Positions 3,046 to 56,736 of a stretch of 64,000 nucleotides of DNA are shown one piece after another. The stretch is from Acidaminococcaceae bacterium (GTDB lineage Bacteria > Bacillota > Negativicutes > Acidaminococcales > Acidaminococcaceae): assembly GCA_017405945.1 (NCBI GenBank), contig JAFQZL010000055.1:1-64000 (forward strand). Direction: 5' to 3'. The notes under the pieces were generated by a model, which saw only the letters and a program-made list of their open reading frames with translations, was not told where the DNA came from and ran no database searches. Within the stretch, counting starts at the first letter, position 1. Each line of letters begins with the position of its first letter. The position numbers were made by a program, and so were the translations under genes.

Positions 3046-3056
3046 TGTCCGCAATG

Positions 3057-3085
3057 TTTTCATTATACGTTAAAAATGGTATAAT
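3057..3085 (+). promoter_or_regulatory. Sigma70-type promoter for the VirK/YbjX-like gene
   Basis: A -35 TTTTCA (3057-3062), a 17-nt spacer and a perfect -10 TATAAT (3080-3085) lie 39 nt upstream of the start codon; an AGGAG ribosome site follows at about 3113. Confidence 0.6.
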
Positions 3086-3123
3086 AAAATGATAAGTAAT
3101 AACTGATAGTACAGGAGACCACA

Positions 3124-4056
3124 ATGGATGAATCAATCCTGCGGGAAGCAGGGCACCGCCTTTACGTAACCAGCCGTCTGAAAGAGATGAAACGGTATCT
3201 GGTGTTCCGTGCCCGCTGCCGCATGCACAAGGATGTTGTTGGCGATCTGCTTGATTTTTTTGCGGAAACCCAGCTGCGCAAAGATATGTTAAAAGGGATG
3301 CCTGCCTTTATCGAGCAGGTGACCCGGGCTTTCTTTTATAAAGATTCGGATTACGCGGGACGCTCTGAACTGATCAAAAACCACATACGGTATATGGAAA
3401 AGCGCTTTACGAAGGAAGCGCTTACGAAACTCTACATAGATGTAGACGTAAAAGAGAATGCCGGCCAGAAAATCCCGCTATGGGAAGATACTTTTGAAGG
3501 CAAACCGCTCCGTATGTCGCTCTATTTCCATGCGGGGCAATATAAGGAAGGCTGCCTTTCCCTGATCCTGACATGGGACGGGGAAGCTTTTTACCAGATC
3601 ATGTTCTGGTTCGGTCCCGACATGGGGAAAACCGGCGACGCCGTCTGGGTCGGCGCCCTGCAGGGCCCCAATCACGACAGCGATGCCATCAAGCGGATGA
3701 CCAAGGCGTTTTTCGGTTACCGGCCCAAGAACCTGATTTTCTACGGACTTCGCAATCTGGCCCGCTGCCTTGGCATCAGCAAAATCTACGGGGTGACCAA
3801 CGAAGGCTACTATGCCATGAATCATATCCGCCTCGACCGCAAACTGAAAACCGACTTCGCCGCGTTCTGGAAAGAATGCGAAGGCGAACCCTGTGAGGCG
3901 GACAAGCGCTTCTACGTGATGCCGGTGAAAGAATACCGCAAAGACATGAGCGAGCTGAAGCCCTCCAAACGGGCCCAGCACCGCCGCCGGTTCGGGAAGC
4001 TGGACACCATTGACGCGGCGTTTGATGAAAGCTGCAAAAGGCTGCTGAAAGATTAA
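3124..4056 (+). CDS. VirK/YbjX family protein (DUF535)
   Basis: A 310-residue protein matching the VirK/YbjX (DUF535) family by overall length and by segments such as WVGALQGPNH, the adjacent YRPKNLIFYGLRNLAR stretch and the ending SKRAQHRRRFGKLD. Family members occur in Gram-negative bacteria and are linked to outer-membrane or antimicrobial-peptide resistance functions, but no biochemical activity is established. No signal peptide or membrane segment is evident, so the product is probably cytoplasmic. It has its own good promoter and an ACAGGAGACCACA ribosome site. It sits just upstream of an LPS-core glycosyltransferase, which agrees with an envelope role. Confidence 0.75.
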   Translation: MDESILREAGHRLYVTSRLKEMKRYLVFRARCRMHKDVVGDLLDFFAETQLRKDMLKGMPAFIEQVTRAFFYKDSDYAGRSELIKNHIRYMEKRFTKEALTKLYIDVDVKENAGQKIPLWEDTFEGKPLRMSLYFHAGQYKEGCLSLILTWDGEAFYQIMFWFGPDMGKTGDAVWVGALQGPNHDSDAIKRMTKAFFGYRPKNLIFYGLRNLARCLGISKIYGVTNEGYYAMNHIRLDRKLKTDFAAFWKECEGEPCEADKRFYVMPVKEYRKDMSELKPSKRAQHRRRFGKLDTIDAAFDESCKRLLKD

Positions 4057-43485: not shown

Positions 43486-44376
43486 TTAAACGTCATAGGT
43501 CTTATCGATAGCTTTCAGTTCACGAAAAGTGTCAATTTCTACAATATCTTCTTCTAAGCACTCCCTAACCTCGACTTTATAATGATTACGACAGTAAACT
43601 AAAGGAACCTGTTCCCAATAGCGCTCCTTGCCGCCGGGTTGTTCATAAACTTCTTTGATATCGTATGAAAGTTTATGTCCGTCTTCCTCGTCCCAATACG
43701 AGATGCCTACCAGCTGCCAACAGTCTATTCCGCCAACTTTTTCATTAATAATAATTCCGTCCTTGACATCAACGCACCAATCATCGGTGCGGTCTTTTTT
43801 GATAGAAAGAAAGTTAGAAGTATAGTGATACTTTTTAATGATTTTGGGGTTGGAAATTAGCAAATCTGCTTCAAACACATAGGCATTAGAAAGCATATAC
43901 CGGGCACACATGGAGGATGAAATATTATTAGCCTCATTATATACTGGATTTTCCAAAAATTTTATCATGGGATATTTATACAGCAGTTGATCAAACTGTT
44001 CTGCAAGATAGCCCCTTACAATATAGATTTCGTTGATACCTGCCTCCAGGCAGGCATCAAGCAACCCGTCTATAATTCGCTTACCATGTACTCGTACCAA
44101 TGGTTTTGGTGTGTTGAACGTAATAGGAACAAGACGTGAACCAAAACCTGCAGCGATAAATATCGCTCGTTTAACCCGATAAGGTTCTAATGCAATAAAA
44201 CCATTATCGGTGATGTTTCCATTTACAACAAAGCCATATTCAGTTAGTTCTTTCATTACTTTGTTAATTGTGCCTAAAGAGTATTTTGTTAATTCTTCCA
44301 ATTGACGTTGTGTTAATGGATTGTTGTTTGTGGCAAGTGCTTCCAATAAATCAAATTGTTTTCTTGTAAGTTTCAT
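43486..44376 (-). CDS. Winged-helix domain fused to a LicC-like CTP:phosphocholine-type cytidylyltransferase
   Basis: A 296-residue fusion. Residues 1-~65 form a winged helix (LTRKQFDLLEALATN, LTQRQLEELTKYSLGTINK). From ~70 a nucleotidyltransferase follows: IFIAAGFGSRLVPITFNTPK with the pyrophosphorylase signature, IYIVRGYLAEQFD, NISSSMCARYML and YVFEADLLI. The catalytic half resembles LicC, which makes CDP-choline, or PntC, which activates 2-aminoethylphosphonate. The DNA-binding domain suggests control of the divergent transporter operon. ATG 44376 is chosen because GAGGTG lies 12 nt upstream; GTG 44391 overlaps that site. Confidence 0.82.
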   Translation of the reverse strand: MKLTRKQFDLLEALATNNNPLTQRQLEELTKYSLGTINKVMKELTEYGFVVNGNITDNGFIALEPYRVKRAIFIAAGFGSRLVPITFNTPKPLVRVHGKRIIDGLLDACLEAGINEIYIVRGYLAEQFDQLLYKYPMIKFLENPVYNEANNISSSMCARYMLSNAYVFEADLLISNPKIIKKYHYTSNFLSIKKDRTDDWCVDVKDGIIINEKVGGIDCWQLVGISYWDEEDGHKLSYDIKEVYEQPGGKERYWEQVPLVYCRNHYKVEVRECLEEDIVEIDTFRELKAIDKTYDV

Positions 44377-44403
44377 AATTATTATATTCACCTCGCGTTA
44401 ATC

Positions 44404-44435
44404 ATATTATTATCAATTTAATCACTTAATAATAT
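44404..44435. promoter_or_regulatory. 9-bp inverted repeat near the winged-helix gene start
   Basis: ATATTATTA (44404-44412) and TAATAATAT (44427-44435), separated by 14 nt. AT-rich, so moderate weight. A possible operator. Confidence 0.35.
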
Positions 44436-44458
44436 TGAGAATGTTTATACATAGGAGT

Positions 44459-44499
44459 TTGCTATATGTTATTTTAACCCAAGTATAAATATATAGCAA
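44459..44499. promoter_or_regulatory. 12-bp inverted repeat in the divergent region, candidate operator
   Basis: TTGCTATATGTT (44459-44470) pairs with AATATATAGCAA (44488-44499) with one G-T position, over a 17-nt spacer. It lies upstream of the -35 box of the transporter promoter, where an activator or repressor would bind. Confidence 0.5.
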
Positions 44500-44543
44500 C
44501 ACGTGAGTTCATAGTTTTTATATAAAATGATTAAAATACACTA

Positions 44544-44572
44544 TTGACACAGTTCAAATTTTGCTGTATTAT
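44544..44572 (+). promoter_or_regulatory. Strong sigma70-type promoter of the ABC transporter operon
   Basis: Perfect TTGACA (44544-44549), 17-nt spacer and TATTAT (44567-44572), 55 nt before the ATG of the ATPase gene. Confidence 0.8.
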
Positions 44573-44626
44573 ACTTGAAAATGAACATAAGCGGTTATTT
44601 TTGATTGATGTTTTGGGAGCTTGTTA

Positions 44627-45406
44627 ATGAATGATAGCCAGGATATTTTAGAAATTAAAAACCTGTTTTACAGCGTAGAACAAAAACAGATTTTGAACGA
44701 CATTAATTTTACCGTTCAAAATGGTGAGTTTTTGTCCATATTAGGTCCGTCCGGTTGCGGTAAAACAACAATCCTCCGGTTGCTGATCGGCTTATTGCAA
44801 CCCGATTCAGGCCAAATCATAAAAAACGGGCAGGACATAACTTTCACGCACCCTTCCAAGCGCGGTATGGGAATCGTTTTCCAGAACTATGCCCTGTTCG
44901 AAAATATGACTGCGTTTGAAAATATTGAATATGCATTAAAACTGAATCCGAAGTTTAAAGCCCGGTCAAAAGACATTGTAAATGAACTGCTCATTCAGAT
45001 GAACCTGATGGAACACGCTGATAAGAAACCCGTTAACCTTTCCGGCGGACAACAGCAGCGGGTTGCTATCGCCAGAACACTTGCAATTAATCCTGACATT
45101 ATTTTATTTGATGAACCCATGTCTGCCCTGGATGTGGAAACACGTTTAGTCCTTCGTAAAGAATTAAAAGATCTGCAGCATAAATATAAAAATACCATGA
45201 TTTATATTACCCACGATCAGGAAGAAGCTTTCGCTATGTCTGACCGGATTATGGTTATGAGCGAAGGGAAGATTCATCAAATCGATACACCGGAAAACCT
45301 GATTACCCATCCCGCAGACGACTACGTGAAACAGTTTGTCGTTCATAATCTGCGCGTAAAAATGGATTCTTTGCTGAAGCATTTAGGCGGTATGTATGAA
45401 AAGTAA
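44627..45406 (+). CDS. ABC transporter ATP-binding protein, phosphonate/iron-type importer
   Basis: A 259-residue ATPase: Walker A LGPSGCGKTT, Q-loop FQNYALFENM, signature LSGGQQQRVAIART, Walker B IILFDEPMSALD and the H-loop THDQEEAFAMSD. The sequence type is that of the Fbp/PotA/PhnT importer class. Given the phosphonate and choline genes around it, uptake of 2-aminoethylphosphonate or a related head-group precursor is more likely than iron (inference). GGGAG seven bases upstream supports ATG 44627 over TTG 44621. Confidence 0.85.
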   Translation: MNDSQDILEIKNLFYSVEQKQILNDINFTVQNGEFLSILGPSGCGKTTILRLLIGLLQPDSGQIIKNGQDITFTHPSKRGMGIVFQNYALFENMTAFENIEYALKLNPKFKARSKDIVNELLIQMNLMEHADKKPVNLSGGQQQRVAIARTLAINPDIILFDEPMSALDVETRLVLRKELKDLQHKYKNTMIYITHDQEEAFAMSDRIMVMSEGKIHQIDTPENLITHPADDYVKQFVVHNLRVKMDSLLKHLGGMYEK

Positions 45407-46946
45407 ATTAAACTGGATCCAGGTAGTGCTTGGCTGTTTTTTCCTGTTTGCGGTTATCGGTCCTTTGTTAACAATGTTCCTTACGATCGATATTCCTCAC
45501 CTGACTGCCATTTTTTCCAATAAAGCGTTTAAAGCGGCAACGTATAATTCCGTAGTCTATTCCGGCATTTCTGCTGTTTTATCTATCGTTCTGGGTGGGA
45601 CTGCCGCCTGGTGTCTGACCCGTTCAAGAGTTAAATTCAAGAGTTTTTTTATTCTTATTCTGACGATACCTATGCTGATTCCGTCTATATCTCACGGAAC
45701 AGGGTTAGTTATCCTGTTGGGCGCTAATGGCATTTTAACGAATTTGCTGGGATTAAAACTCCCTCTCTACGGTGGATTGGGGATAATCCTTGGTTCCATT
45801 ATGTATTCCCTGCCGGTAGCTTTTTTGATGTTTTATGACATACTGAAATATGAGGACGCACTGCCTTATGATATGGCGGAGATACTGGGAGTAAACAAGT
45901 TGCGCCAGTTTAAAGACCTGACGCTCCCCTATTTATATAAACCGCTGATTTCCATTATCTTTGCGATTTTCACTCTTATTGTTACCGATTACGGCGTACC
46001 TTTGACCATTGGGGGGCATGTAAAAACACTTCCGGTCATGATGTACGAAGACGTTATCGGGTTGTTAGATTTTGTGAAAGGAAGCGTAATTGGTACATTC
46101 CTGTTATTGCCTGCCGTTGTGGCTTTTGTTATTGATTTGCTGAATAAAGGAAATGCTAATGCGAGTTATGTTAGAACTCCGTTTCGCCTGAATAAAAGCT
46201 TTGCGCGGGAATGTTTCAGCTACCTTTATCTTGGGCTTATTACCATTATTGTTTTATTACCGCTAGTCACCTTTGCGTTCCTGTCGTTTGTAAAAAAGTA
46301 TCCTATGGATTTAAGCTTCACAACCTACCATATACACCGGTTGATAGAGATGGAAGGACTTGTTTATTTAGGCAACTCTTTTATTATTGCTATCAGTGTA
46401 GCTGTGATTGGTACCCTCGGCGCTTTTGTTACAGCGTATCTTTCCGCCCGTATTCAAACCAAGACCTCTTATTTTCTTCACTTAATGACTATTACGTCTC
46501 TGGCCATACCGGGTCTGGTTCTCGGTTTATCATATGTGTTGTTTTTTAATGGGACTTTAATATACGGAACGCTGGCCATGCTGATACTGGTCAATATCGT
46601 TCACTTTTTTGCATCGCCCTATTTGATCATGTACAATACTCTGAATAAGGTAAACCGGAATCTGGAAGACATTGGTATGATATTGGGTATTTCCCGTTTT
46701 AACCTGATTACCCATGTCATTATTCCACAGGTGGCACCGTCTTTAAAAGAAATGGCTGTTTACCTTTTTGTAAATTCCATGATGACAATTTCGGCGGTGT
46801 CTTTCTTAAGCAATGTGGCTACCAAACCAATAGCATTAATGATTACACAGTTTGAGGCCATTATGATGCTGGAGTGTACGGCAGTTGTTTCCCTTATAAT
46901 ATTGGGGGTCAACATTGTTGTACGTACCATTGCGTTACGCAATTAA
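45396..46946 (+). CDS. ABC transporter permease, fused two-domain type
   Basis: A 516-residue protein with about 12 membrane segments arranged as two MetI-type halves. The first EAA loop is around MAEILGVNKLRQFKDLTLPY (~160-180), the second around IGMILGISRFNLITHVIIPQ (~425-445). Fused permeases of this kind serve iron (FbpB) and 2-aminoethylphosphonate (PhnUV-like) importers. The segment ISHGTGLVILLGANG agrees with the phosphonate group. It overlaps the ATPase gene by 11 nt, so the two are co-translated. Confidence 0.83.
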   Translation: MKSKLNWIQVVLGCFFLFAVIGPLLTMFLTIDIPHLTAIFSNKAFKAATYNSVVYSGISAVLSIVLGGTAAWCLTRSRVKFKSFFILILTIPMLIPSISHGTGLVILLGANGILTNLLGLKLPLYGGLGIILGSIMYSLPVAFLMFYDILKYEDALPYDMAEILGVNKLRQFKDLTLPYLYKPLISIIFAIFTLIVTDYGVPLTIGGHVKTLPVMMYEDVIGLLDFVKGSVIGTFLLLPAVVAFVIDLLNKGNANASYVRTPFRLNKSFARECFSYLYLGLITIIVLLPLVTFAFLSFVKKYPMDLSFTTYHIHRLIEMEGLVYLGNSFIIAISVAVIGTLGAFVTAYLSARIQTKTSYFLHLMTITSLAIPGLVLGLSYVLFFNGTLIYGTLAMLILVNIVHFFASPYLIMYNTLNKVNRNLEDIGMILGISRFNLITHVIIPQVAPSLKEMAVYLFVNSMMTISAVSFLSNVATKPIALMITQFEAIMMLECTAVVSLIILGVNIVVRTIALRN

Positions 46947-47009
46947 ATCTTTAGCTTACTATTGTTTTTCATTTATATTTTTTAAATAAAAAGAAAAGGA
47001 GAAAAAAGA

Positions 47010-48020
47010 ATGAAAAAAGTTTTAGTTATGGTCATGGCAGCTGTGTTCTGCCTGGCAGCATTGGGATGCGGCGGTGGAAAAGCAGACAAAAAGCCTGCCG
47101 AAAACAAAGACGCAGGCAGCAAGAAAGTTGTGATTTTTTCCAGCGCGGAAGAGTATAAAAATGAGTTCTACAAAACAAAACTCAAGGAAAAATTCCCGCA
47201 ATATGATATTGTCATCGAATATCTTTCCACCGGGAAACATGCTGCCAAGCTGAAAGCGGAAGGCGAAAAGACGCTTTGTGACATTTCTTTGGATTTAGAG
47301 CAGGGTTACGCGCAACAGCTGAAACCGATTTTTGCGGATTTAAGCAGCTATGACACCAGCAGATATATGGAAGATCTTCTTTCCAAAGACAAAAAATATT
47401 TACCTGAATGTCGTGTAGGCGGCGCCATTATTTTAAACACCGAAGTATTAAAGGCAAAAGGCTTAAAAGCCCCCCAGTCTTATGAAGATTTGCTGAAACC
47501 TGAATATAAAGGACTTATTTCGATGCCCAGCCCCAAAGCTTCGGGTACCGGCTACATTTTCTTAAAGGCATTGGTAAATTCTATGGGTGAAGATAAGGCA
47601 TTTGCCTATTTTGATCAGTTAAGCAAAAATGTTTTGCAGTTTACCAGTTCCGGTTCCGGTCCTGTTAACGCGTTAATCAATAAAGAGGTAGCTATCGGTT
47701 TAGGTATGACTGCACAGGGCGCACTAAAGAAAACCGAAGGCGCGCCTTTTGAGATCGTTTTCTTCAAGGAAGGTTCCCCCTACACGTTCTACACTGTAGC
47801 CCTGATTAAGGGAAAAGAAAAGAACAAGGCTGTTAAAGAAGTTTTTGATTACCTGAGCGGTCCTGTCATTGAAGGCCAGGTACAGAAATATTATCCGGAA
47901 AAACTTTACAAAGATAAAGACTATACCATCAAAAATATGCCTGAAAAAATCAAATATGCGGACATGAAAAATAATACGATTGAAGAAAAAGAACGCCTGC
48001 TGGCTAAGTGGAATCACTAA
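47010..48020 (+). CDS. ABC transporter substrate-binding lipoprotein, probable aminoethylphosphonate-type
   Basis: A 336-residue extracytoplasmic binding protein. A lipoprotein signal ends in LAALGC (Cys near 20). The mature part has the SBP type II fold: VVIFSSAEEYKNEF, EYLSTGKHAAKLKAEGEKT, PSYEDLLKPEYKGL-like hinge region (PQSYEDLLKPEYKGLISMP) and MGLGMTAQGALKKTEGAPFE-type binding segment. The family covers iron, thiamine and 2-aminoethylphosphonate binders; neighbours favour the last. AAGGAG ribosome site. A strong terminator follows. Confidence 0.82.
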   Translation: MKKVLVMVMAAVFCLAALGCGGGKADKKPAENKDAGSKKVVIFSSAEEYKNEFYKTKLKEKFPQYDIVIEYLSTGKHAAKLKAEGEKTLCDISLDLEQGYAQQLKPIFADLSSYDTSRYMEDLLSKDKKYLPECRVGGAIILNTEVLKAKGLKAPQSYEDLLKPEYKGLISMPSPKASGTGYIFLKALVNSMGEDKAFAYFDQLSKNVLQFTSSGSGPVNALINKEVAIGLGMTAQGALKKTEGAPFEIVFFKEGSPYTFYTVALIKGKEKNKAVKEVFDYLSGPVIEGQVQKYYPEKLYKDKDYTIKNMPEKIKYADMKNNTIEEKERLLAKWNH

Positions 48021-48137: not shown

Positions 48138-48181
48138 CTGACAGAAGTATTAATTTTTATTATAGAAAGTGAGATATGATA

Positions 48182-49480
48182 ATGAAAACTGCTTATGTTT
48201 GTTTCTGTACAGATGTAATTCACGATGGGCATTTAAACATTATAAATAACGCAAGAAAATACGGACGGGTCGTTGTTGGCTGTCTTACAGATAAAGAAAT
48301 GGTGCGCTGCACAAAGTTCCCTACTACCACTATTGAGGAGCGAATCAATTTATATAAAACAATTGAAGGCGTTGAAGAAGTAGTGATTCAGGACAACATG
48401 TTATATGACGATGTAATTGAAAAAATTCATCCGGACTATGTTGTGCATGGTGATAACTGGAAAGAAGGCGCGGAGAGAGCTGTAAGAAATCATGTTGAAA
48501 AACTGCTTTCTGCCTACGGCGGACAAATTATTGATGTTCCTTATACATACAATGAAAAGGTCAGAAAAGTAGACCAACGTTTGAAAGAAAAACTGGCAAT
48601 GCCCGAATACAGGAGAAAGCGTCTTCGCCAGCTTATTGAAATGACTCCTGTGGTTAAAACAATGGAAGCGCATTCCGGTCTTACCGGCTTGATTATTGAG
48701 AAGACGGTTGTAGAAGAAGAAAACGGAAGACTGGATCAGTTCGATGCAATGTGGGTATCTTCTCTTTGTGACAGCACCGACCGCGGAAAACCCGATATCG
48801 AGCTCGTAGATATGACGTCCAGGCTCCGTACCATTAACGATATTATGGAAGTAACAACCAAACCTATTATTCTTGACGGTGATACCGGGGGGCTTACCGA
48901 ACATTTTGTTTACAATGTAAGAACCTTGGAACGGATGGGCGTAAGCGCAGTCATTATTGAGGACAAAACCGGACTGAAAAAGAACAGTTTGTTTGGAACC
49001 GAAGTTGTACAGACACAGGACACGATAGAAAACTTTTCTGCAAAGATTTCGGCAGGTAAAAGAGCACAGCTTTCCGATGATTTTATGATTATCGCACGGA
49101 TAGAAAGCCTTATTCTGGAACGTGGTATGGAAGATGCGCTGAAACGGGCTTTTGCGTTCAGAGACGCGGGTGCTGACGGGATAATGATACATAGCAGGAA
49201 AAAAGATCCTGCAGAAATCCTTGAATTCTGTGATAAGTTCCGCGCTGAAGACAAAAAGACCCCGATTGTTGTGGTGCCGACCTCATTTAACCAGATCACG
49301 GAAAACGAGCTGGCTTCCCACGGAGTTAATATCGTTATATACGCAAATCAGTTAATGCGGGCGGCATTCCCGGTTATGAAGCAGACAGCAGAAGAAATTC
49401 TCCGCGCGCATCGCGCAAAAGAAGTTGATTCCAAGTTAATGCCGTTCAAAGATATTATAAGATTAATTGACGAGTTATAA
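48182..49480 (+). CDS. pepM: Cytidylyltransferase-phosphoenolpyruvate mutase fusion
   Basis: A 432-residue two-domain enzyme. Residues 1-~135 are a nucleotidylyltransferase of the glycerol-3-phosphate-cytidylyltransferase type, with VIHDGHLNII carrying the HxGH motif (14-17) and a later ISSTR-like position replaced. From ~150 follows phosphoenolpyruvate mutase: LILDGDTGG-like IILDGDTGGLTEH and the diagnostic EDKTGLKKNS (260-269; EDKX5NS). PepM makes phosphonopyruvate from PEP, the entry step of phosphonate biosynthesis; phosphonopyruvate decarboxylase is at 53279. The N-terminal domain could activate a phosphonate or phosphate with CTP. ATG 48176 is an alternative start; ATG 48182 has better spacing from GTGAG. 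Confidence 0.9.
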   Translation: MKTAYVCFCTDVIHDGHLNIINNARKYGRVVVGCLTDKEMVRCTKFPTTTIEERINLYKTIEGVEEVVIQDNMLYDDVIEKIHPDYVVHGDNWKEGAERAVRNHVEKLLSAYGGQIIDVPYTYNEKVRKVDQRLKEKLAMPEYRRKRLRQLIEMTPVVKTMEAHSGLTGLIIEKTVVEEENGRLDQFDAMWVSSLCDSTDRGKPDIELVDMTSRLRTINDIMEVTTKPIILDGDTGGLTEHFVYNVRTLERMGVSAVIIEDKTGLKKNSLFGTEVVQTQDTIENFSAKISAGKRAQLSDDFMIIARIESLILERGMEDALKRAFAFRDAGADGIMIHSRKKDPAEILEFCDKFRAEDKKTPIVVVPTSFNQITENELASHGVNIVIYANQLMRAAFPVMKQTAEEILRAHRAKEVDSKLMPFKDIIRLIDEL

Positions 49481-49502
49481 TACGGTAACTGAGGAATAAA
49501 TA

Positions 49503-50249
49503 ATGGAGCAAAAATATCTGATCCTGTCCGATATACATGGAAATATCAGTGCTTTTGATTCTGTTCTTTCAGACTGTAAAGAGGAAGACTTTACAGGGGT
49601 TATCTTGTTAGGCGACTGTATTGATTACGGCATGCGTTCCAATGAAACCATTTCCATGTTACAGGAACTGATTTCAGGGAAATGGAAAGATAAAGTTCTT
49701 GTCAATATTTGGGGTAACCATGAACAGCTATTGACAGAAAAGAATTTGGAACGCCTTTCATCAGACCGGGGCAGGATGATTGCAAATTATACGGCAGAGC
49801 ACATTTCGGGTAATTCCATGGCGTATATCCTTACTGCAATGAACCGTAAAGGACAGGAGTGTTTCAAAATTCATGACTTGAAATGTCTGGCGGTACACGG
49901 TTCGCTGGAAGATTATTATTGGAAAGCAGTATCGCCTGATAATGCAAGAGGCGATTATAGTGATTTTGATATTGTTTTTTCCGGACATTCACACTATTCA
50001 CATTGTTTCACAAAGTTTTATTCCACGGATAATGAGGAATTGCGGAACAAGAAAGCAGTGATTTTCATTAATCCGGGTTCTGTAGGGCAACCGAGAAACC
50101 AGAATCCCTGCGCGCAATATGCGGTACTGTCTCTGCCATCAAAAAGAGTGGAATTACGGTGTGTACCGTATGATGTGGAATTCGAACAGTCTTTGTTTCC
50201 AGATGTATTAGATGCATTTTATAAAACGAGACTTACCAAGGGCATATAA
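49503..50249 (+). CDS. Calcineurin-like metallophosphoesterase (YfcE/MJ0936-like)
   Basis: A 248-residue binuclear-metal phosphoesterase: LSDIHGNISAF (motif I), LLGDCIDYG (II), WGNHEQLL (III), VFSGHSHYSH (IV-V) and INPGSVGQPRNQN. The family removes phosphate from mono- or diesters in the cytoplasm. Lodged between PEP mutase and an SDR gene, it may dephosphorylate an intermediate of the same pathway, but the substrate cannot be inferred. It starts 22 nt after the PEP mutase gene with GAGG nearby. Confidence 0.83.
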   Translation: MEQKYLILSDIHGNISAFDSVLSDCKEEDFTGVILLGDCIDYGMRSNETISMLQELISGKWKDKVLVNIWGNHEQLLTEKNLERLSSDRGRMIANYTAEHISGNSMAYILTAMNRKGQECFKIHDLKCLAVHGSLEDYYWKAVSPDNARGDYSDFDIVFSGHSHYSHCFTKFYSTDNEELRNKKAVIFINPGSVGQPRNQNPCAQYAVLSLPSKRVELRCVPYDVEFEQSLFPDVLDAFYKTRLTKGI

Positions 50250-50264
50250 AGGAGTACATCAACA

Positions 50265-51278
50265 ATGTGTAAGCTTTATGTAATCAGCGGTGTTACCGGT
50301 ATGACCGGCAACGAGTTGGTACAACAGATATTGATTGATAAAGAATGCAAGGATCATATTATCGGCTTTGATAATTTCTATGCATCGTCTATAGAAACTG
50401 TAAAAGATTTTTTAGATGACAGGCGCTTTGACTTTTTAGAGTATGACTTAAACAACAAGCAACAGATGGACGACGTCGAAAAACGAATACTGGCGATGAA
50501 GAGCCAATACGATGAAATCATCTATATTAACTGCGCAGCTGTTGTTCATACCGAACATTTCTATCATGTATATGAAACATTCGAAACGAACGTTACAGGT
50601 ATGAATGAATTTCTTCAGCAGGCGATCCGGGTCGGTGCCCAAAAGTTTATTAACTGCTCAACGTCTGAAGTGTATTCGATGGAATCGTGGAACGAGAACG
50701 GTGGTGTGCGTGAGGACAGCTATTTGCTTATTTCCCATGCAGAGCACAGTCAGCGGACCAGCTATGCTGTAGGCAAACTTTTAACAGAGTTTTTCATGAA
50801 AGACGCTGTGGATACGGGTAAAATCAAAGGTTGTTCTATCCGTTTTGCCAATGTTTACAGTAAGAATGAACGGTATCCCAAACATATTATTCCGTTCATT
50901 ATTAACAGTTTAAAAGACAATGGAAAAGTAACGCTTTTGGAAAACTCCAGAAAGAACAGGAGAACGTTCCTGAACAATTATGACAGCTGCAGCGCTGTGC
51001 TTGCTCTTGCAAATACAGATACCGCACTGGACGGAAGTATATATAACGTTGCTACCGATGAAGAGATTACAATTATTGCTTTGGCTGAACTGTGCGCGGC
51101 CAAAATGGGAATAAAGAACCCGGTTATTGATTTTAAAGGATTCAGAGCTTCTGATCCGGAAAGACGGTTGTTGTCTACAGAAAAGATCAGAGCACGTACA
51201 TCCTGGAAACCGGTAGTTAATCTGGACAAAGGCCTGGATGAATGTATCGAAAACTACCTGAAAGAGGCCGCTAAATGA
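50265..51278 (+). CDS. NAD-dependent epimerase/dehydratase (extended SDR)
   Basis: A 337-residue extended SDR. The NAD motif is YVISGVTGMTGNELVQ, the NCAAVVHTEHF segment follows the fourth strand, and the catalytic pair is in SYAVGKLLTEFF (YxxxK). FANVYSKNERYPKHIIPFII agrees with sugar-nucleotide epimerases. It is translationally coupled to the next gene (ATGA overlap at 51275). Whether it acts on a nucleotide sugar or on a phosphonate intermediate is unknown. Confidence 0.82.
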   Translation: MCKLYVISGVTGMTGNELVQQILIDKECKDHIIGFDNFYASSIETVKDFLDDRRFDFLEYDLNNKQQMDDVEKRILAMKSQYDEIIYINCAAVVHTEHFYHVYETFETNVTGMNEFLQQAIRVGAQKFINCSTSEVYSMESWNENGGVREDSYLLISHAEHSQRTSYAVGKLLTEFFMKDAVDTGKIKGCSIRFANVYSKNERYPKHIIPFIINSLKDNGKVTLLENSRKNRRTFLNNYDSCSAVLALANTDTALDGSIYNVATDEEITIIALAELCAAKMGIKNPVIDFKGFRASDPERRLLSTEKIRARTSWKPVVNLDKGLDECIENYLKEAAK

Positions 51279-52030
51279 AAGCTGCGATCATTACTGTTGC
51301 CGGAGTATCCAGCCGGTTTAATGAAGGCATTCCTGAAGAACACAAAGCCCTTAAATCAATATATTGGGAAAATGACTGTAAAGATACTTTGCTTTATCAT
51401 CTTTTGCAAAAATGTTCCTGCGCTGATTTTATAGTTGTTGTTGGCGGATACAAGTTTGATGCATTACAAGAATACTGTAAAAGCCTGGAAAGTGAATTGA
51501 AAGGAAAAATGCTTTTAGTTTACAATGAACACTTTTCAGATTTGGGATCCGGATACAGCCTGTATTTAGGATTAAAGGCTGTATTTGACAAGGGAGCAGA
51601 GGAAGTTTTGTTTGTTGAGGGTGATCTGGATATTGACGAACCGTCTTTTAATAGAGTTGCCCACGCAAAAGGGAACGTCCTGACATATAATTATCTGCCC
51701 ATTTACACAAACAAAGCTGTTGTTCTTTATAAGGATATAAAAGATAACTACCGTTATGCCTTTAACAGCGACCATGGGTATTTAAAAATAGAATCTCCTT
51801 TTTCCTGTATCCTTAATTCCGGTCAGGTTTGGAAATTTACGGAAATGGATAAGTTGAAAAAGGCTAACGAAAGATTCTTTGAGGAAAACAGGGTCGGTAC
51901 CAACCTGAACATTATACAAAACTATCTAGATGATAATACCCGGTGTGATATTATAGGGCTGAAACGATGGACAAATTGCAACACGCGTGAAGATTTTAAA
52001 CAAATCAGGTCATTTTGGGAGGAAGAATGA
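51275..52030 (+). CDS. Nucleotidyltransferase-family protein
   Basis: A 251-residue GT-A/nucleotidyltransferase-fold protein: AAIITVAGVSSRFNEGIPEE (a divergent GxGxR loop), FIVVVGGYKFDAL, GSGYSLYLGLKAV and the metal-binding VEGDLDIDEPSF. It resembles sugar-phosphate or choline-phosphate nucleotidyltransferases, with a weaker signature lysine. It overlaps both neighbours by 1-4 nt (ATGA junctions), so it is part of the phosphonate operon, and may activate the product of that operon with a nucleotide. Confidence 0.72.
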   Translation: MKAAIITVAGVSSRFNEGIPEEHKALKSIYWENDCKDTLLYHLLQKCSCADFIVVVGGYKFDALQEYCKSLESELKGKMLLVYNEHFSDLGSGYSLYLGLKAVFDKGAEEVLFVEGDLDIDEPSFNRVAHAKGNVLTYNYLPIYTNKAVVLYKDIKDNYRYAFNSDHGYLKIESPFSCILNSGQVWKFTEMDKLKKANERFFEENRVGTNLNIIQNYLDDNTRCDIIGLKRWTNCNTREDFKQIRSFWEEE

Positions 52031-53217
52031 TGAAAACGTTAAATGATAAACTGCAAGTCGTCGAAAAACACGTACAGGAAGGCACAATCAAAATAATGAT
52101 TATCGGGCTGGGCAGCGTCGGTTCTTATTTGTTGGACTACCTTGTCAGCAAAAATGATCCGGCAATCAAAATTATTGTTGTCGGCCGGAATGCTGAAAAA
52201 CTCGAGACGAAAGTTAACATTGTTAAAATTGCAGGACTTATCCGCCATTCCAATAAGTCCGTAATCGAAATTGAAAACAATGTTGACCTGACAAATATCG
52301 AAGCAATTCAAAAAGCAATTGAAAAGCATCAGCCGGATTTTATCGTTAACTCAAGTCGCGCCTACCCGGGCCTGAAATACGGCAGTATCTCCTGGTCAAA
52401 TGTCAGAGCTTATGGTATCTGGAGTCCGCTGTCCATCCGGTTCACGAAAAACATAATGGACGCATGTGAACTGGCAGATACAAATGCCGTTGTAATCAAC
52501 ACGTCATATTCGGACGTGGTAATTCCCTGGCTGAAAAGCGCAGGAAAGGCATACCCGGATTTTGGCAGCGGCAATTTAAATCATTTGGTTCCCCGTATGC
52601 AGTTTGCTGTTGCAAATATGCTGAACGTGGAAGATTTTTGGAACGTCGATATCATGTTCGCGGCCGGTCATTTCCATGATGTTTGTATCAGTAAAGAAGG
52701 GCATACTGAGGGCGTAAACCTGCCTCTCAAAATCTATTATAAAGGCGAAGAGAAAGATCTTCCCCATGATAAAATCTTTGCTGCCTGCAAAATTGCAATG
52801 CCGGTCGACCAAACCCGTAATATGATGAATGCCTCGAGTAACTATCAAATCATTACAGCGGTTATTGATGCAATCCGGACCCGGAAAGATCAAAAACTCT
52901 TTATACCTGGTTTTAACGGAAACATTGGAGGCTACCCGGTAATCATCGGTTATCGGGAGAACAGACTCTCTGCCTGGATTGATGATTCGGTCTTCAGTTT
53001 TGAAGAGATGAACCGGGCAAACCGGGAATCCATTGCTCTTGACGGTGTAGAAGATGTTGTTGGGGGAAAAATCATTTATACTGACGCCTTGATAAAGAAA
53101 GCGATAAAGGCTTTTGGGGTAGAATTGCCTAAAACAGTCGCCTATCAAGATATTGATACTACGGCAAAGTTTATTATTGATAACATTATTATGCCGCAGC
53201 TTGCTAAAAAAGACTGA
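52030..53217 (+). CDS. Saccharopine-dehydrogenase-like NAD(P)-dependent oxidoreductase of unknown function
   Basis: A 395-residue protein with an N-terminal Rossmann fold (IMIIGLGSVGSYLLDYLVSK; VVGRNAEKLE) and IVNSSRAYPGLKYG at the end of the dinucleotide domain, as in saccharopine-dehydrogenase-like reductases. The C-terminal ~200 residues are not recognised. It lies just before phosphonopyruvate decarboxylase in the same unit, so reduction or reductive amination of phosphonoacetaldehyde is a testable guess. The start is ATG 52030 (GGGAGG seven bases upstream); ATG 52027 and TTG 52015 are also in frame. Confidence 0.6.
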   Translation: MKTLNDKLQVVEKHVQEGTIKIMIIGLGSVGSYLLDYLVSKNDPAIKIIVVGRNAEKLETKVNIVKIAGLIRHSNKSVIEIENNVDLTNIEAIQKAIEKHQPDFIVNSSRAYPGLKYGSISWSNVRAYGIWSPLSIRFTKNIMDACELADTNAVVINTSYSDVVIPWLKSAGKAYPDFGSGNLNHLVPRMQFAVANMLNVEDFWNVDIMFAAGHFHDVCISKEGHTEGVNLPLKIYYKGEEKDLPHDKIFAACKIAMPVDQTRNMMNASSNYQIITAVIDAIRTRKDQKLFIPGFNGNIGGYPVIIGYRENRLSAWIDDSVFSFEEMNRANRESIALDGVEDVVGGKIIYTDALIKKAIKAFGVELPKTVAYQDIDTTAKFIIDNIIMPQLAKKD

Positions 53218-53278
53218 TAAAACCGGCTCGATGCTATTGAGACGGAAAAACAAACATCAAACTATTGGGGGTATTCTG

Positions 53279-54421
53279 ATGCGAGTTGAAGATTTTGTAA
53301 AGATTATTGGGGCAGATTTTTATACAGGTGTTCCGGATTCGCAGCTTAAAGCTTTATGTTATTATTTGATGAACACCTACGGCATTGATTCAAAGCATCA
53401 CATTATCGCGGCTAATGAAGGAAACTGTGCTGCTTTGGCTGCAGGCTATCATCTGGCAACAGGAAAAGTTCCTGTGGTTTACATGCAAAATAGCGGCGAA
53501 GGAAATATTATTAATCCGGTGGCCAGCCTGTTAAATGAAAAAGTGTATGCAATTCCTGTCATTTTTATTATAGGCTGGCGCGGCGAACCGGGTATTCATG
53601 ATGAACCCCAGCATATTTATCAGGGTGAAGTGACAGTAAAGTTGCTGGAAGATATGGGAATTGCTTCATTTGCTATTGGGACGGATACAGCATTTGAAGA
53701 AGTTGCTGCTGTCATGGCAGAGTTCCGTAATAGTCTGGCAAAAGGCAAAGATGTGGCCTTTGTGATTCGTAAAGAAGCTTTAACCTATGATAAAAAGGTA
53801 AAATACGAGAATAAAAACACGTTATTGAGAGAAGAAATCATACAGCACATTGTAAAAGCTTCCGGCGAAGATCCCATTATTTCCACAACGGGCAAAGCAA
53901 GCCGTGAATTGTATGAAACCAGGGAAGCGAACGGGCAAAGCCATAAATATGATTTTCTCACTGTAGGAAGTATGGGACATTCTTCTTCTATAGCGTTGGG
54001 CGTTGCTGTTAACAAACCGGGACAACGTATTTGGTGTATTGACGGCGACGGTGCCGTACTCATGCATATGGGGGCCATGGCATTGATTGGAGCAAACAGG
54101 CCGAATAATCTTGTTCATATAGTTATTAACAACGGCGCTCATGAATCAGTTGGCGGAATGCCTACGGTTGCCGGTTCTGTTGACCTTGTAGCAGTTGCAA
54201 GAGCGTGCGGCTATCCTTCTGCTGTAAGTGTAGATAATTTTACTGACTTGGACAAAGAACTGGAAGCGGCAAAAGCACGGAAAGAACTTTCTTTGATTGA
54301 GGTAAAGTGTGCTATTGGTGCCAGAGGTGATTTGGGCCGACCCACAACGACCGCGTTGGAGAACAAACAGGGATTTATGGAGTATTTAATCGAATTATAT
54401 AGTCTTCATAAAAAATACTAA
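53279..54421 (+). CDS. aepY: Phosphonopyruvate decarboxylase
   Basis: A 380-residue thiamine-diphosphate enzyme. The family begins with VKIIGADFYTGVPDSQLKAL, has the catalytic Glu in AANEGNCAALAAG (~47), GWRGEPGIHDEPQH around 100-110 and the ThDP/Mg site CIDGDGAVLMHMGAMAL (GDG 256-258) ending in INN near 285. It converts phosphonopyruvate to phosphonoacetaldehyde, making the PEP mutase step irreversible. Length fits the family. The open frame continues upstream to 53153 but the ATG at 53279 starts the conserved region and has GGGGG upstream. Confidence 0.93.
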   Translation: MRVEDFVKIIGADFYTGVPDSQLKALCYYLMNTYGIDSKHHIIAANEGNCAALAAGYHLATGKVPVVYMQNSGEGNIINPVASLLNEKVYAIPVIFIIGWRGEPGIHDEPQHIYQGEVTVKLLEDMGIASFAIGTDTAFEEVAAVMAEFRNSLAKGKDVAFVIRKEALTYDKKVKYENKNTLLREEIIQHIVKASGEDPIISTTGKASRELYETREANGQSHKYDFLTVGSMGHSSSIALGVAVNKPGQRIWCIDGDGAVLMHMGAMALIGANRPNNLVHIVINNGAHESVGGMPTVAGSVDLVAVARACGYPSAVSVDNFTDLDKELEAAKARKELSLIEVKCAIGARGDLGRPTTTALENKQGFMEYLIELYSLHKKY

Positions 54422-54435
54422 ATAATGTTTTAAGC

Positions 54436-54855
54436 TTGAGGTCCTTTATAGAAGAGCATAAATGTGAGTTTCAGCTGACACATATTGATGCGGTATCTGA
54501 CAACTTTCTGTTTGATATTGGAACGACCGGGGAATTGAGCGTACAGTTGACGGACTGGGAATACGCTGGTATGCAGGATAAGCATGTAGATATTGCCATG
54601 TTTGCCATATATAGTATGTATGATAAGACACAGCTTGACTACCTCATTGATCTGTATTTTGCAGAAGAAGGCGAGTGCGACATGGTTACAAGGGCCAAGA
54701 TTTATTGTTATGTTGCGGCTTGCGGTCTTTTATGGTCCAACTGGTGTGAATATAAGCGGCATTTAGGAGTTGAGTTTGGCGAATACAGTCTTTATCAATA
54801 CCGTTATGGAAAGGATTTTTATCGTTATGCTGAAGCACTGATAGCAAAGCTATGA
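54436..54855 (+). pseudogene. Truncated LicA-like choline kinase, C-terminal part only
   Basis: The 139-residue frame matches only the C-lobe of LicA/choline-kinase proteins: LTHIDAVSDNFLF (catalytic loop, with Ile where the intact copy has Asn) and LTDWEYAGMQDKHVDIAMFA (DFG-like metal site). The N-lobe with the ATP-binding loop, about 175 residues, is missing, and only 14 bases separate it from the preceding stop codon, so it is not simply frameshifted. Its only start is a TTG. An intact LicA is at 55819. Probably a deletion remnant. Confidence 0.7.
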
Positions 54856-54867
54856 GGAGGGGTAAGC

Positions 54868-55737
54868 TTGAAAGTAGACAATGCGATTATCATGGCGGCC
54901 GGAACTTCCAGCCGGTTTGCGCCGCTGTCATATGAAAAACCAAAATCACTGATAGAAGTTAAAGGGGAAGTTTTGCTGGAAAGACAGATTAGGCAGTTGC
55001 AAGAGGCAGGCGTTCCGGAGATTTTTATTGTGACGGGTTACAAGGCAGAGCAGTTTGTGTATTTAAAAGAAAAATTTGGGGTTCAACTGATTAATAATCC
55101 GGACTATTTGACAAGAAACAATAACGGATCTATTTGGTGTGCCAGGAATATTTTGCACAATACTTATATTTGTTCATCAGACAATTATTTTACTGTTAAC
55201 CCATTTGAAAAAGACACAGAGGAATGTTATTACGCAGCGGAGTTTTCGGAAAGGCATACTGCAGAATGGTGCATGACTGAGGATGAGAATGGATATATTG
55301 ATTCCGTAACTATTGGCGGGGAGAATGCATGGTATATGTTAGGGCATGCATTTTGGAGCGAGGAATTTAGTAAAAAGTTTTTGGAGATTTTAGAAAGGGA
55401 ATATAGTCTTCCGGAAACAAAGGATAAACTTTGGGAAAAAATATTTATGGCGCATCTGGATGAATTAAAAATGAAAATACGAAAATATCCGCCCGGTGTG
55501 ATTTTTGAATTTGACACCATCGATGAGTTGCGCGCATTTGATGCCAGTTATAAGACAGATTCCCGTTCTGTCATTATGAAAAAAATCGCAGAAGACTTGT
55601 GTATTTCGGAAAGTGAAATTGTAAATCTTGTGTCCGTTAGAAGCGCAAATACAGAAGCAGCTGGTTTTATATTTGATGTACCTGCTGGGCATTATCAGTA
55701 TTTATATGACACGGGTGTATTGAAAAAAGTAAGATAA
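54868..55737 (+). CDS. licC: LicC/PntC-like CTP:phosphocholine or aminoethylphosphonate cytidylyltransferase
   Basis: A 289-residue nucleotidyltransferase. The signature AIIMAAGTSSRFAPLSYEKP with the following KSL and the IFIVTGYKAEQF, NNNGSIWCARNIL and YICSSDNYF segments are typical of LicC and its relative PntC. It should form CDP-choline or the CMP-phosphonate from CTP. Residues from ~230 to 289 form an extra C-terminal extension (MKKIAEDLCISESEIVNLVS) not usual in LicC. The TTG start has GGAGGGG upstream. Confidence 0.83.
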   Translation: MKVDNAIIMAAGTSSRFAPLSYEKPKSLIEVKGEVLLERQIRQLQEAGVPEIFIVTGYKAEQFVYLKEKFGVQLINNPDYLTRNNNGSIWCARNILHNTYICSSDNYFTVNPFEKDTEECYYAAEFSERHTAEWCMTEDENGYIDSVTIGGENAWYMLGHAFWSEEFSKKFLEILEREYSLPETKDKLWEKIFMAHLDELKMKIRKYPPGVIFEFDTIDELRAFDASYKTDSRSVIMKKIAEDLCISESEIVNLVSVRSANTEAAGFIFDVPAGHYQYLYDTGVLKKVR

Positions 55738-55818
55738 CGACTGCAATTATATTACAATTAATTATATAGGTTAAATCCTGAATCATAATTCGTTTAATAA
55801 TACAGGAAAAGGGGTTTT

Positions 55819-56736
55819 ATGATGGCAGAATTAGTGCGGCAAATAGTGGAGGAAGATATTCCGAAGGTGAAAGAGCTTTTGTATATAGTCTTTTCCGACG
55901 GGGAGTATCAACAGATTGAAAGGCTTGGGGGCATGACGAATCATTCATATAAAGTGACACGGAATGACGGACAGGAGTACCTGGTTCGCATTCCAGGCGA
56001 CGGTACGGATGGGATGATTAACCGACTCGATGAACGGAAAAGTACAGAACTGGCTTGTAAACTTGGGATTGACTCGGAACTGCTTTATTTTGGTGATGAC
56101 GGAACTAAGGTAATGCGTTTCATTCATAATCCGAAACCCATGAACGAGGAAGTGATGAGAAGAAAAGAAAATCTTTTGCAGGCGGCCGAAATTTTCCGAA
56201 AATTACATACCTGCGGGGTGGATACGGGTGTGCGGTTTGAAGTTTTTGAAATGGCTGCACTTTATGAAAGAATTATCCGGGATGCCGGGGTTGCTTTTTA
56301 TGATGACTATGAAAAAGTAAAACAATGTGTAATGGATATCAAAAAGGCGGTTGATGGTGTCGGTGTTGCACCGCGTGTACCATGCCATAATGATTCCCTG
56401 ATGGGGAACTGGGTTCTTGGTCAAGATGGGAAGTTATACTTAATTGATTGGGAATATTCTGGAATGAACGAAGCTATGTGGGATTTGTCCTGTCTCTCAA
56501 TCGAAGCAAATTATGCGGAAAAGAATGACGGCGAGCTATTGAATGCATATTATAAAAGAGAAGCAACGATTGACGAAAAGAAGCGATTCGTAGCAGCGAA
56601 ATTATATGTAGATTATTTATGGACGTTATGGGGTTTGACAAGAATACCTTTTGATGGTGAGTTTATGCAGGAATATGCTGATGGGCGATATTTACGTCTT
56701 AAGAATAATATAGACGTATACAAAAAATTAGGCTAA
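55819..56736 (+). CDS. licA: LicA-like choline/ethanolamine kinase
   Basis: A 305-residue kinase of the aminoglycoside-phosphotransferase fold: RLGGMTNHSYKVTR (nucleotide loop), PCHNDSLMGNWVL (catalytic loop, HND 190-192) and LYLIDWEYSGMNEAMWDLS (metal site, D210). LicA phosphorylates choline imported by LicB, giving the substrate of LicC. The first 25 residues resemble an added N-terminal helix. ATG 55822 is equally possible as start; AAAAGGGG lies upstream of both. Confidence 0.88.
   Translation: MMAELVRQIVEEDIPKVKELLYIVFSDGEYQQIERLGGMTNHSYKVTRNDGQEYLVRIPGDGTDGMINRLDERKSTELACKLGIDSELLYFGDDGTKVMRFIHNPKPMNEEVMRRKENLLQAAEIFRKLHTCGVDTGVRFEVFEMAALYERIIRDAGVAFYDDYEKVKQCVMDIKKAVDGVGVAPRVPCHNDSLMGNWVLGQDGKLYLIDWEYSGMNEAMWDLSCLSIEANYAEKNDGELLNAYYKREATIDEKKRFVAAKLYVDYLWTLWGLTRIPFDGEFMQEYADGRYLRLKNNIDVYKKLG

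Follow-up and report, generated by a model that had tools for sequence, protein, structure and literature searches.

What does a cytidylyltransferase gain from a winged-helix DNA-binding domain, and does the joined protein act on the promoter of the transporter genes that its own gene faces? These questions are raised by a fusion gene in the stretch of DNA analyzed here, 64,000 nucleotides of contig JAFQZL010000055.1 from an Acidaminococcaceae bacterium, which we refer to as the window. The reading that we favor, with a probability of roughly 0.7, is that the fusion is a BirA-like enzyme-repressor: a 2-aminoethylphosphonate (AEP) cytidylyltransferase that would repress the import and synthesis of AEP.

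The open reading frame of the fusion occupies 43486-44391 on the minus strand, and the ATG at 44376 is its likelier start. This choice gives a protein of 296 residues (43489-44376) with a winged helix at residues 1-66 and a LicC/PntC-type transferase, probably an AEP cytidylyltransferase, at residues 67-296. Domain searches, which used a 301-residue reading, matched Pfam MarR_2 (1.2e-7, residues 8-55), HTH_24 (2e-5, residues 9-55), and NTP_transferase (4.3e-11, residues 76-139), and the best sequence matches in the PDB are S. pneumoniae LicC (1jyk, 1.9e-26) and T. denticola PntC (6pd1, 3.4e-10). An AlphaFold model built with 63 family members as input (mean pLDDT 92) has helices at residues 5-16, 23-30, and 34-46, a short wing, and a helix at 57-66, followed by the transferase. 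The top Foldseek structure for this model is LicC 1jyk (30% identity, TM 0.87 on the target), and PntC 6pd2 occupies the third row, as the second-best among different proteins. The statement of an earlier note on this DNA, that a DNA-binding domain is joined to a cytidylyltransferase, is confirmed by these domain, structure, and model comparisons.

The MarR-like winged helix comprises ≈66 residues. When the first 67 residues were modeled separately (pLDDT 94), the nearest folds were MarR-family chains, the best with a Foldseek E value of 0.019 and none below 0.001. Whereas MarR family regulators are stand-alone winged-helix dimers with dimerization helices, the model of the fusion has the winged-helix core alone, with the transferase directly after it and the MarR dimerization helices absent, and the fusion thus falls outside that family. 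Family comparison places the recognition-helix residues among the best kept of the domain, residues 33-39 reading SLG[T/S][I/V]N[R/K] in at least 97 of 121 distinct homologs. The earlier note had proposed that loss of key helix-turn-helix residues in close homologs would speak against its reading; these residues are largely retained, and the 10 homologs in which the helix-turn-helix is lost or strongly diverged also lack the DNA site described below, a pattern that favors DNA binding by the others.

Divergent from the fusion, on the plus strand, lie ABC transporter genes (44621-48020) whose best models are PhnT2, PhnU2, and PhnS2, all under their curated cut-offs. They encode an ATP-binding protein at 44627-45406 (the ATG at 44627 is preferred over the TTG at 44621; TIGR03265, 300 bits, cut-off 457.7), a permease at 45396-46946 (TIGR03262, 340 bits, cut-off 593), and a substrate-binding protein at 47010-48020 (TIGR03261, 184 bits, cut-off 393). 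Because the models score below these cut-offs, AEP is a putative cargo; import of a head-group precursor, as the earlier note suggested, is probable. Farther along, Ppm at 48176, with an N-terminal CTP_transf_like domain, and Ppd at 53153 both exceed their curated cut-offs. No AEP aminotransferase (AEPT) in the same genome does so, the best reaching 31.7 bits vs 360.8, so that AEP for the fusion enzyme is probably imported. The stretch from 48176 to 54421 holds, between Ppm and Ppd, a metallophosphatase, an epimerase, a DUF6564 NTP transferase, and a 400-residue protein with no NCBIfam match at 1e-5; since these middle genes recur beside Ppm in loci L033 and L080, the product of this cassette may be a different phosphonate from AEP. 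Beyond it, the stretch 54436-56736 contains a stand-alone LicC-like gene together with a 139-residue kinase fragment and a full kinase (GntI and thiamine kinase are the best NCBIfam matches, under cut-off); this may be a lic-like phosphocholine module of its own.

Gene context was also counted in 87 loci, which were chosen by presence of the fusion and are not an unbiased genome sample; their fusion reading frames were set by a forced call, a first ORF-calling pass having missed 12 of the 87. The next same-strand gene downstream of the fusion is AEPT in 27, an APC-type permease in 18, and PhnS2 in 16 (61/87 loci), and it is often followed by Ppm-Ppd or PhnT2-PhnU2. With the window, L089, L032, and L058 left out, 83 distinct loci remain. 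At least two AEP biosynthesis genes are found in 35 of them and at least two PhnSTU2 genes in 21; at least one context type is seen in 72 and none in 11, several of which are short contigs. The ppm/AEP gene context typical of PntC enzymes is accordingly a feature of many fusion loci. The APC-type amino acid permease family is present in 24 of the 83 loci (for example, L011 6887-8404), and import of AEP or a related amine by this permease is possible.

The active site of the transferase bears on the same question of substrate. The nucleotide-site residues G77, R81, K91, and D171, characteristic of the LicC/NTP-transferase fold, are present in 121/121 fusion homologs. According to Rice and co-workers, in their 2019 article on PntC, Glu104 and Glu196 of the T. 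denticola enzyme lie near the AEP amine, where LicC has Asp105 and Asp192 (PMC6697681). In alignments of the fusion with PDB sequences, E169 and E255 correspond to E104/E196 of PntC, not to D105/D192 of LicC; the second position was placed through LicC only, with LicC numbering taken as the chain number minus 20. E169 is found in all 121 homologs and E255 in 111, with Asp there in 7, so that the fusion family has Glu at both AEP-amine positions, the mark of PntC membership. A point against the AEP reading is that the aromatic residues W200 and Y253 are retained as in LicC; the AEP-preferring Ari-PntC is said in the same main text to retain the aromatic box too (PMC6697681).

LicC is the closest solved structure, and the window has separate choline-kinase-like and LicC-like genes, adjoining each other ≈10 kb from the fusion, which might be taken to mean that the fusion is a phosphocholine cytidylyltransferase and that the transporter imports choline or phosphocholine. 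The neighbors of the fusion are, however, AEPT/Ppm/Ppd or PhnSTU2, a match to the choline-kinase-like protein of the window occurs in 1/83 loci, the two glutamates are PntC-like, and the transporter scores best, if below cut-off, with AEP models. The Asp pair and the LicA/choline context of LicC were looked for in the fusion family and not found beyond that one locus and the seven Asp residues at the second position. We consider a LicC-type role unlikely. The substrate is probably AEP rather than phosphocholine, as judged from gene neighbors, co-occurrence with AEPT (below), and the two active-site glutamates, and the phosphocholine named in the earlier note is not supported.

The predicted operator lies in the divergent region, which is 25% G+C. 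A sigma-70-type promoter of the transporter operon at 44544-44572 on the plus strand, with TTGACA at 44544-44549 and TATTAT at 44567-44572 separated by 17 bp, matches the consensus at 11 of 12 positions and bears out the near-consensus promoter of the earlier note; a promoter scan of the region overall found 3 promoter-like sites vs 3.3 in shuffles, no excess. Over the −10 box of this promoter is the sequence GTTCA-N25-TGAAC (44552-44586), its half-sites GTTCA (44552-44556) and TGAAC (44582-44586) flanking TATTAT. This pattern was seen in 1/2000 shuffles of the region and recurs across the family. In the sister species L006, whose fusion is 80% identical and likewise divergent from phnT2, the transporter strand carries TTTCA-N25-TGAAC (one mismatch) with a −35 box TTGATT at −8 and a −10 box TATTAT at +15, which is the spacing of the window and gives the promoter the same position relative to the site; the rest of the L006 divergent region aligns poorly. 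Because the window site is ≈175 bp from the fusion start, autoregulation is not evident in the window.

Two inverted repeats had been proposed in the earlier note as elements of this region, and both are present with perfect 9-bp arms, at 44404-44435 and 44459-44499. They are mildly unusual for the region, at least two such repeats arising in 6/500 dinucleotide shuffles, and the second overlaps a weak minus-strand promoter-like site (44499-44471), as might be expected if they served, in addition to the transporter site, as operators of the promoter from which the fusion is transcribed. Against such a role, a MAFFT alignment read by eye gave no obvious counterpart of either repeat in the divergent region of L006, and their sequences differ from the family motif, which makes it improbable. 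As the operator proper the repeats were rejected because of the missing L006 counterpart, and the family-wide site is the one at 44552-44586.

The search that defined this site used 85 distinct 250-bp regions upstream of the fusion (87 loci minus identical upstreams). In an unguided count of all 6-mers, TGTTCA/TGAACA is the most enriched, occurring in 67/85 upstreams vs 13.7 expected from shuffles. Convergent GTTCA/TGAAC pairs within 60 bp number 46, with 24 at a spacing of 30 and 12 at a spacing of 31 (36/46). Exact GTTCA-N25/26-TGAAC pairs are present in 34/85 upstreams, compared with a mean of 0.05 and a maximum of 1 in 200 shuffles, and pairs with at most one mismatch in 57/85 vs 1.9 in 30 shuffles; 8/85 upstreams have no half-site whatever. 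Over the 87 loci as a whole (1.46 Mb), 57 exact pairs were counted, where equal base frequencies would give 2.8; duplicate records (L089 duplicates L022, and L058 nearly duplicates L054) account for at least two of these pairs. By target, 54 of the 57 lie before the fusion (36), PhnS2 (10), AEPT (7), or PhnT2 (1), and the remaining 3 are elsewhere. Same-direction GTTCA pairs in the family upstreams peak at 21 bp (9/25), a distance of two turns that could mean a third half-site in some operators.

The genome of the window has 5 exact sites, with ≈4.7 expected at equal base frequencies, and none of the backward-read pattern. Among 20 fusion genomes, a longer operator pattern was found at 42 places vs 17 for the backward-read pattern, with none in one genome; the excess is ≈1 place per genome and hence mainly the AEP locus itself, and a wider regulon was rejected on this ground. 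LexA was likewise discarded as the binder of the GTTCA site. The LexA box, GAAC-N4-GTTC, has the opposite orientation and a short spacing.

The position of the site relative to promoters suggests how it would act. Of the 54 sites, 38 have a promoter with a score of 9 or more out of 12, and 16 have none such. The −10 box of these 38 promoters starts at −20 to −6 relative to the site in 23 cases and at +8 to +15 in 8, the remaining 7 lying farther downstream, a distribution counted without a shuffle control. The −10 box or start point therefore lies under the site in 31/38, the geometry of a repressor. MarR-like proteins can activate, and the fusion might do so at the GTTCA site, yet a protein bound where these 31 sites lie would cover the −10 box or start site, so that we hold activation to be very unlikely. 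That the fusion controls the facing transporter promoter, as the earlier note envisaged, is very likely, and repression is the mode that we favor.

The winged helix and the site vary together, as a comparison in 121 distinct family members (149 minus identical upstreams) shows, with sites counted within 300 bp ahead of the fusion. A helix-turn-helix was called intact when at least 41% identical to that of the window, a line set after seeing the data. Among loci with an intact domain, 53/111 have the exact site and 26 have it with one mismatch (79/111 within one mismatch), vs 0/10 of those in which the domain is lost or strongly diverged. The corresponding Fisher value of 1.2e-5 is inflated by the post hoc line and by the lower transferase identity of the diverged loci (47-74%, below nearly all intact loci). 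For loci added once the motif had been defined (L108 onward; exact duplicates removed, close relatives of earlier loci retained), the counts are 19/28 exact and 22/28 within one mismatch with an intact domain and 0/8 with a diverged one. Four of the diverged homologs, L090, L111, L142, and L143, have an N-terminal part of 50-55 residues vs 62-68 elsewhere, in which the start of the recognition helix is missing, and a transferase 70-74% identical; L161 and L162, at a transferase identity of 71-74%, retain the helix and the exact site. The same four look like natural enzyme-only versions, with a damaged helix-turn-helix, a well-kept transferase, and no GTTCA site.

The correlation is incomplete, since in 32 of the 111 loci with an intact domain the 300 bp preceding the fusion contain no site within one mismatch. 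In part of these the site stands before AEPT or PhnS2 instead, and in the others none was found; L008, for example, retains the helix core SVGTVNK and has no GTTCA site. The fusion in that locus (2551-3849) immediately follows the gene of an MFS transporter, for which PgtP/GlpT-type models score best without reaching their cut-offs. Such loci would fit a winged helix that is not a regulator at all, serving in dimerization or persisting as a leftover domain, with the GTTCA site belonging to another regulator encoded elsewhere. That explanation is at odds with the joint absence of helix and site, with recognition-helix residues among the best kept of the domain, and with the MarR-family chains as its nearest folds. 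It also sits poorly with AEPT loci from genomes without the fusion, where exact pairs were found in 0/5 loci of a first control set and pairs within one mismatch in 0/5 usable loci of a second. The first set had three one-mismatch pairs in 2/5 loci, none within 300 bp before AEPT, and includes G279, a genome with a transferase that lacks the helix-turn-helix; the second left out L224 (567 bases) and L228 (162 bases) as too short. The AEPT genome of L211, first counted as fusion-free, holds a fusion fragment. We judge it unlikely that the winged helix has no regulatory part, and a regulatory winged helix is assumed in what follows.

The fusion family is large and patchily spread. In the family to which the window belongs, 4/59 genomes carry the fusion, its own included (E 1e-50), and in the phylum the same threshold gave a match in 6/398 sampled genomes; of the phylum loci besides the window, L089-L091 were counted as fusions, although the helix of L090 is damaged, and L092-L094, whose matches begin at residue 64 or later, were taken to lack the helix-turn-helix. 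One other family has a fusion match in 52/115 genomes (E 1e-80) and AEPT in 58/115. Both occur together in 50/52 fusion genomes, vs AEPT in 8/63 others (Fisher 1.9e-21, kinship ignored), and one of the eight AEPT-only genomes holds a fusion fragment. A scan of named genomes gave at least 393 transferase relatives at tblastn E 1e-3, with the winged helix checked in part. The best 80 of these, which were retained, are 72-83% identical; most stem from Clostridia assemblies of gut and rumen origin, and Schwartzia, a Spirochaetaceae, and a Flexilinea record are also represented. Two loci, L072 (10001-12200) and L088, hold two fusion-family genes each; in L072, one or more exact sites belong to the second fusion copy and one or more to PhnS2.

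We propose the following mechanism. The C-terminal PntC-type domain would make CMP-AEP from CTP and AEP, as homology, neighbors, and active-site residues suggest, and the N-terminal MarR-like winged helices would bind GTTCA-N25/26-TGAAC as a pair, as suggested by the family-wide site and its absence together with the helix. Half-sites 30-31 bp apart, about three helical turns, would suit a dimer reaching across. The pair bound at the window site would cover the −10 box of the phnT2U2S2-type promoter and so shut off AEP import, and relatives carry this site before the fusion gene, the AEP aminotransferase-Ppm-Ppd genes, and the PhnS2T2U2 genes. By analogy with BirA, AEP or CMP-AEP in the active site may provide feedback that represses AEP supply, the ligand and the sign being guesses. 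We lean, more cautiously than for the enzyme-repressor itself, toward the broader picture of a widespread regulator of surface phosphonate decoration, in which AEP synthesis and import are both under feedback repression by the enzyme committing AEP to the surface, with one shared operator moved between alternative supply modules across gut bacteria.

Enzyme-repressors are a known general kind. NadR and archaeal RbkR are helix-turn-helix domains fused to an enzyme of the regulated pathway, and they serve other pathways than the fusion. The nearest parallel is the group II biotin protein ligase BirA. In the account of it drawn on here, an N-terminal winged helix regulates the biotin synthesis and transport genes, and the remainder of the protein makes an activated nucleotide intermediate, so that the enzyme controls genes for its own substrate (PMC4016012). 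The fusion likewise joins a winged helix with a conserved recognition helix to an enzyme, and a computationally defined site with predicted binding stands at promoters of its own pathway genes. The winged-helix dimer of BirA on its forty-base-pair biotin operator, named in the title of a work that this source cites (reference 43 of PMC4016012), can be likened to the 30-31 bp half-site distance. The catalytic fold, chemistry, operator, and metabolite are different, and ligand control of the fusion is putative.

On the enzymatic side, the fusion resembles the PntC proteins Tde1415 and Ari1348 in transferase fold, in Glu/Glu at the AEP site, and in adjoining ppm/AEPT genes, whereas Tde-PntC is fused to AEPT and the present protein to a winged helix; the main text of the PntC article makes no mention of a helix-turn-helix, a winged domain, or regulation (PMC6697681). 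S. pneumoniae LicC, its nearest solved structure, differs in having no winged helix and in its lic gene context. A literature search combining these enzymes and pathways with DNA binding or regulation, in a coverage that excludes most subscription journals, found no report of the fusion. As far as our searches show, then, the union of a phosphonate cytidylyltransferase and a winged helix that has an operator of its own is new.

We know of no earlier regulator of surface-phosphonate (Pnt) pathways, and the fusion, if our reading is correct, would be the first. As an enzyme-repressor it would also serve a surface head-group pathway instead of cofactor metabolism. A defined operator and a natural series of homologs with and without the DNA-binding helix are at hand, and with them come testable predictions of how gut and rumen bacteria may set the supply of 2-aminoethylphosphonate for their surfaces.
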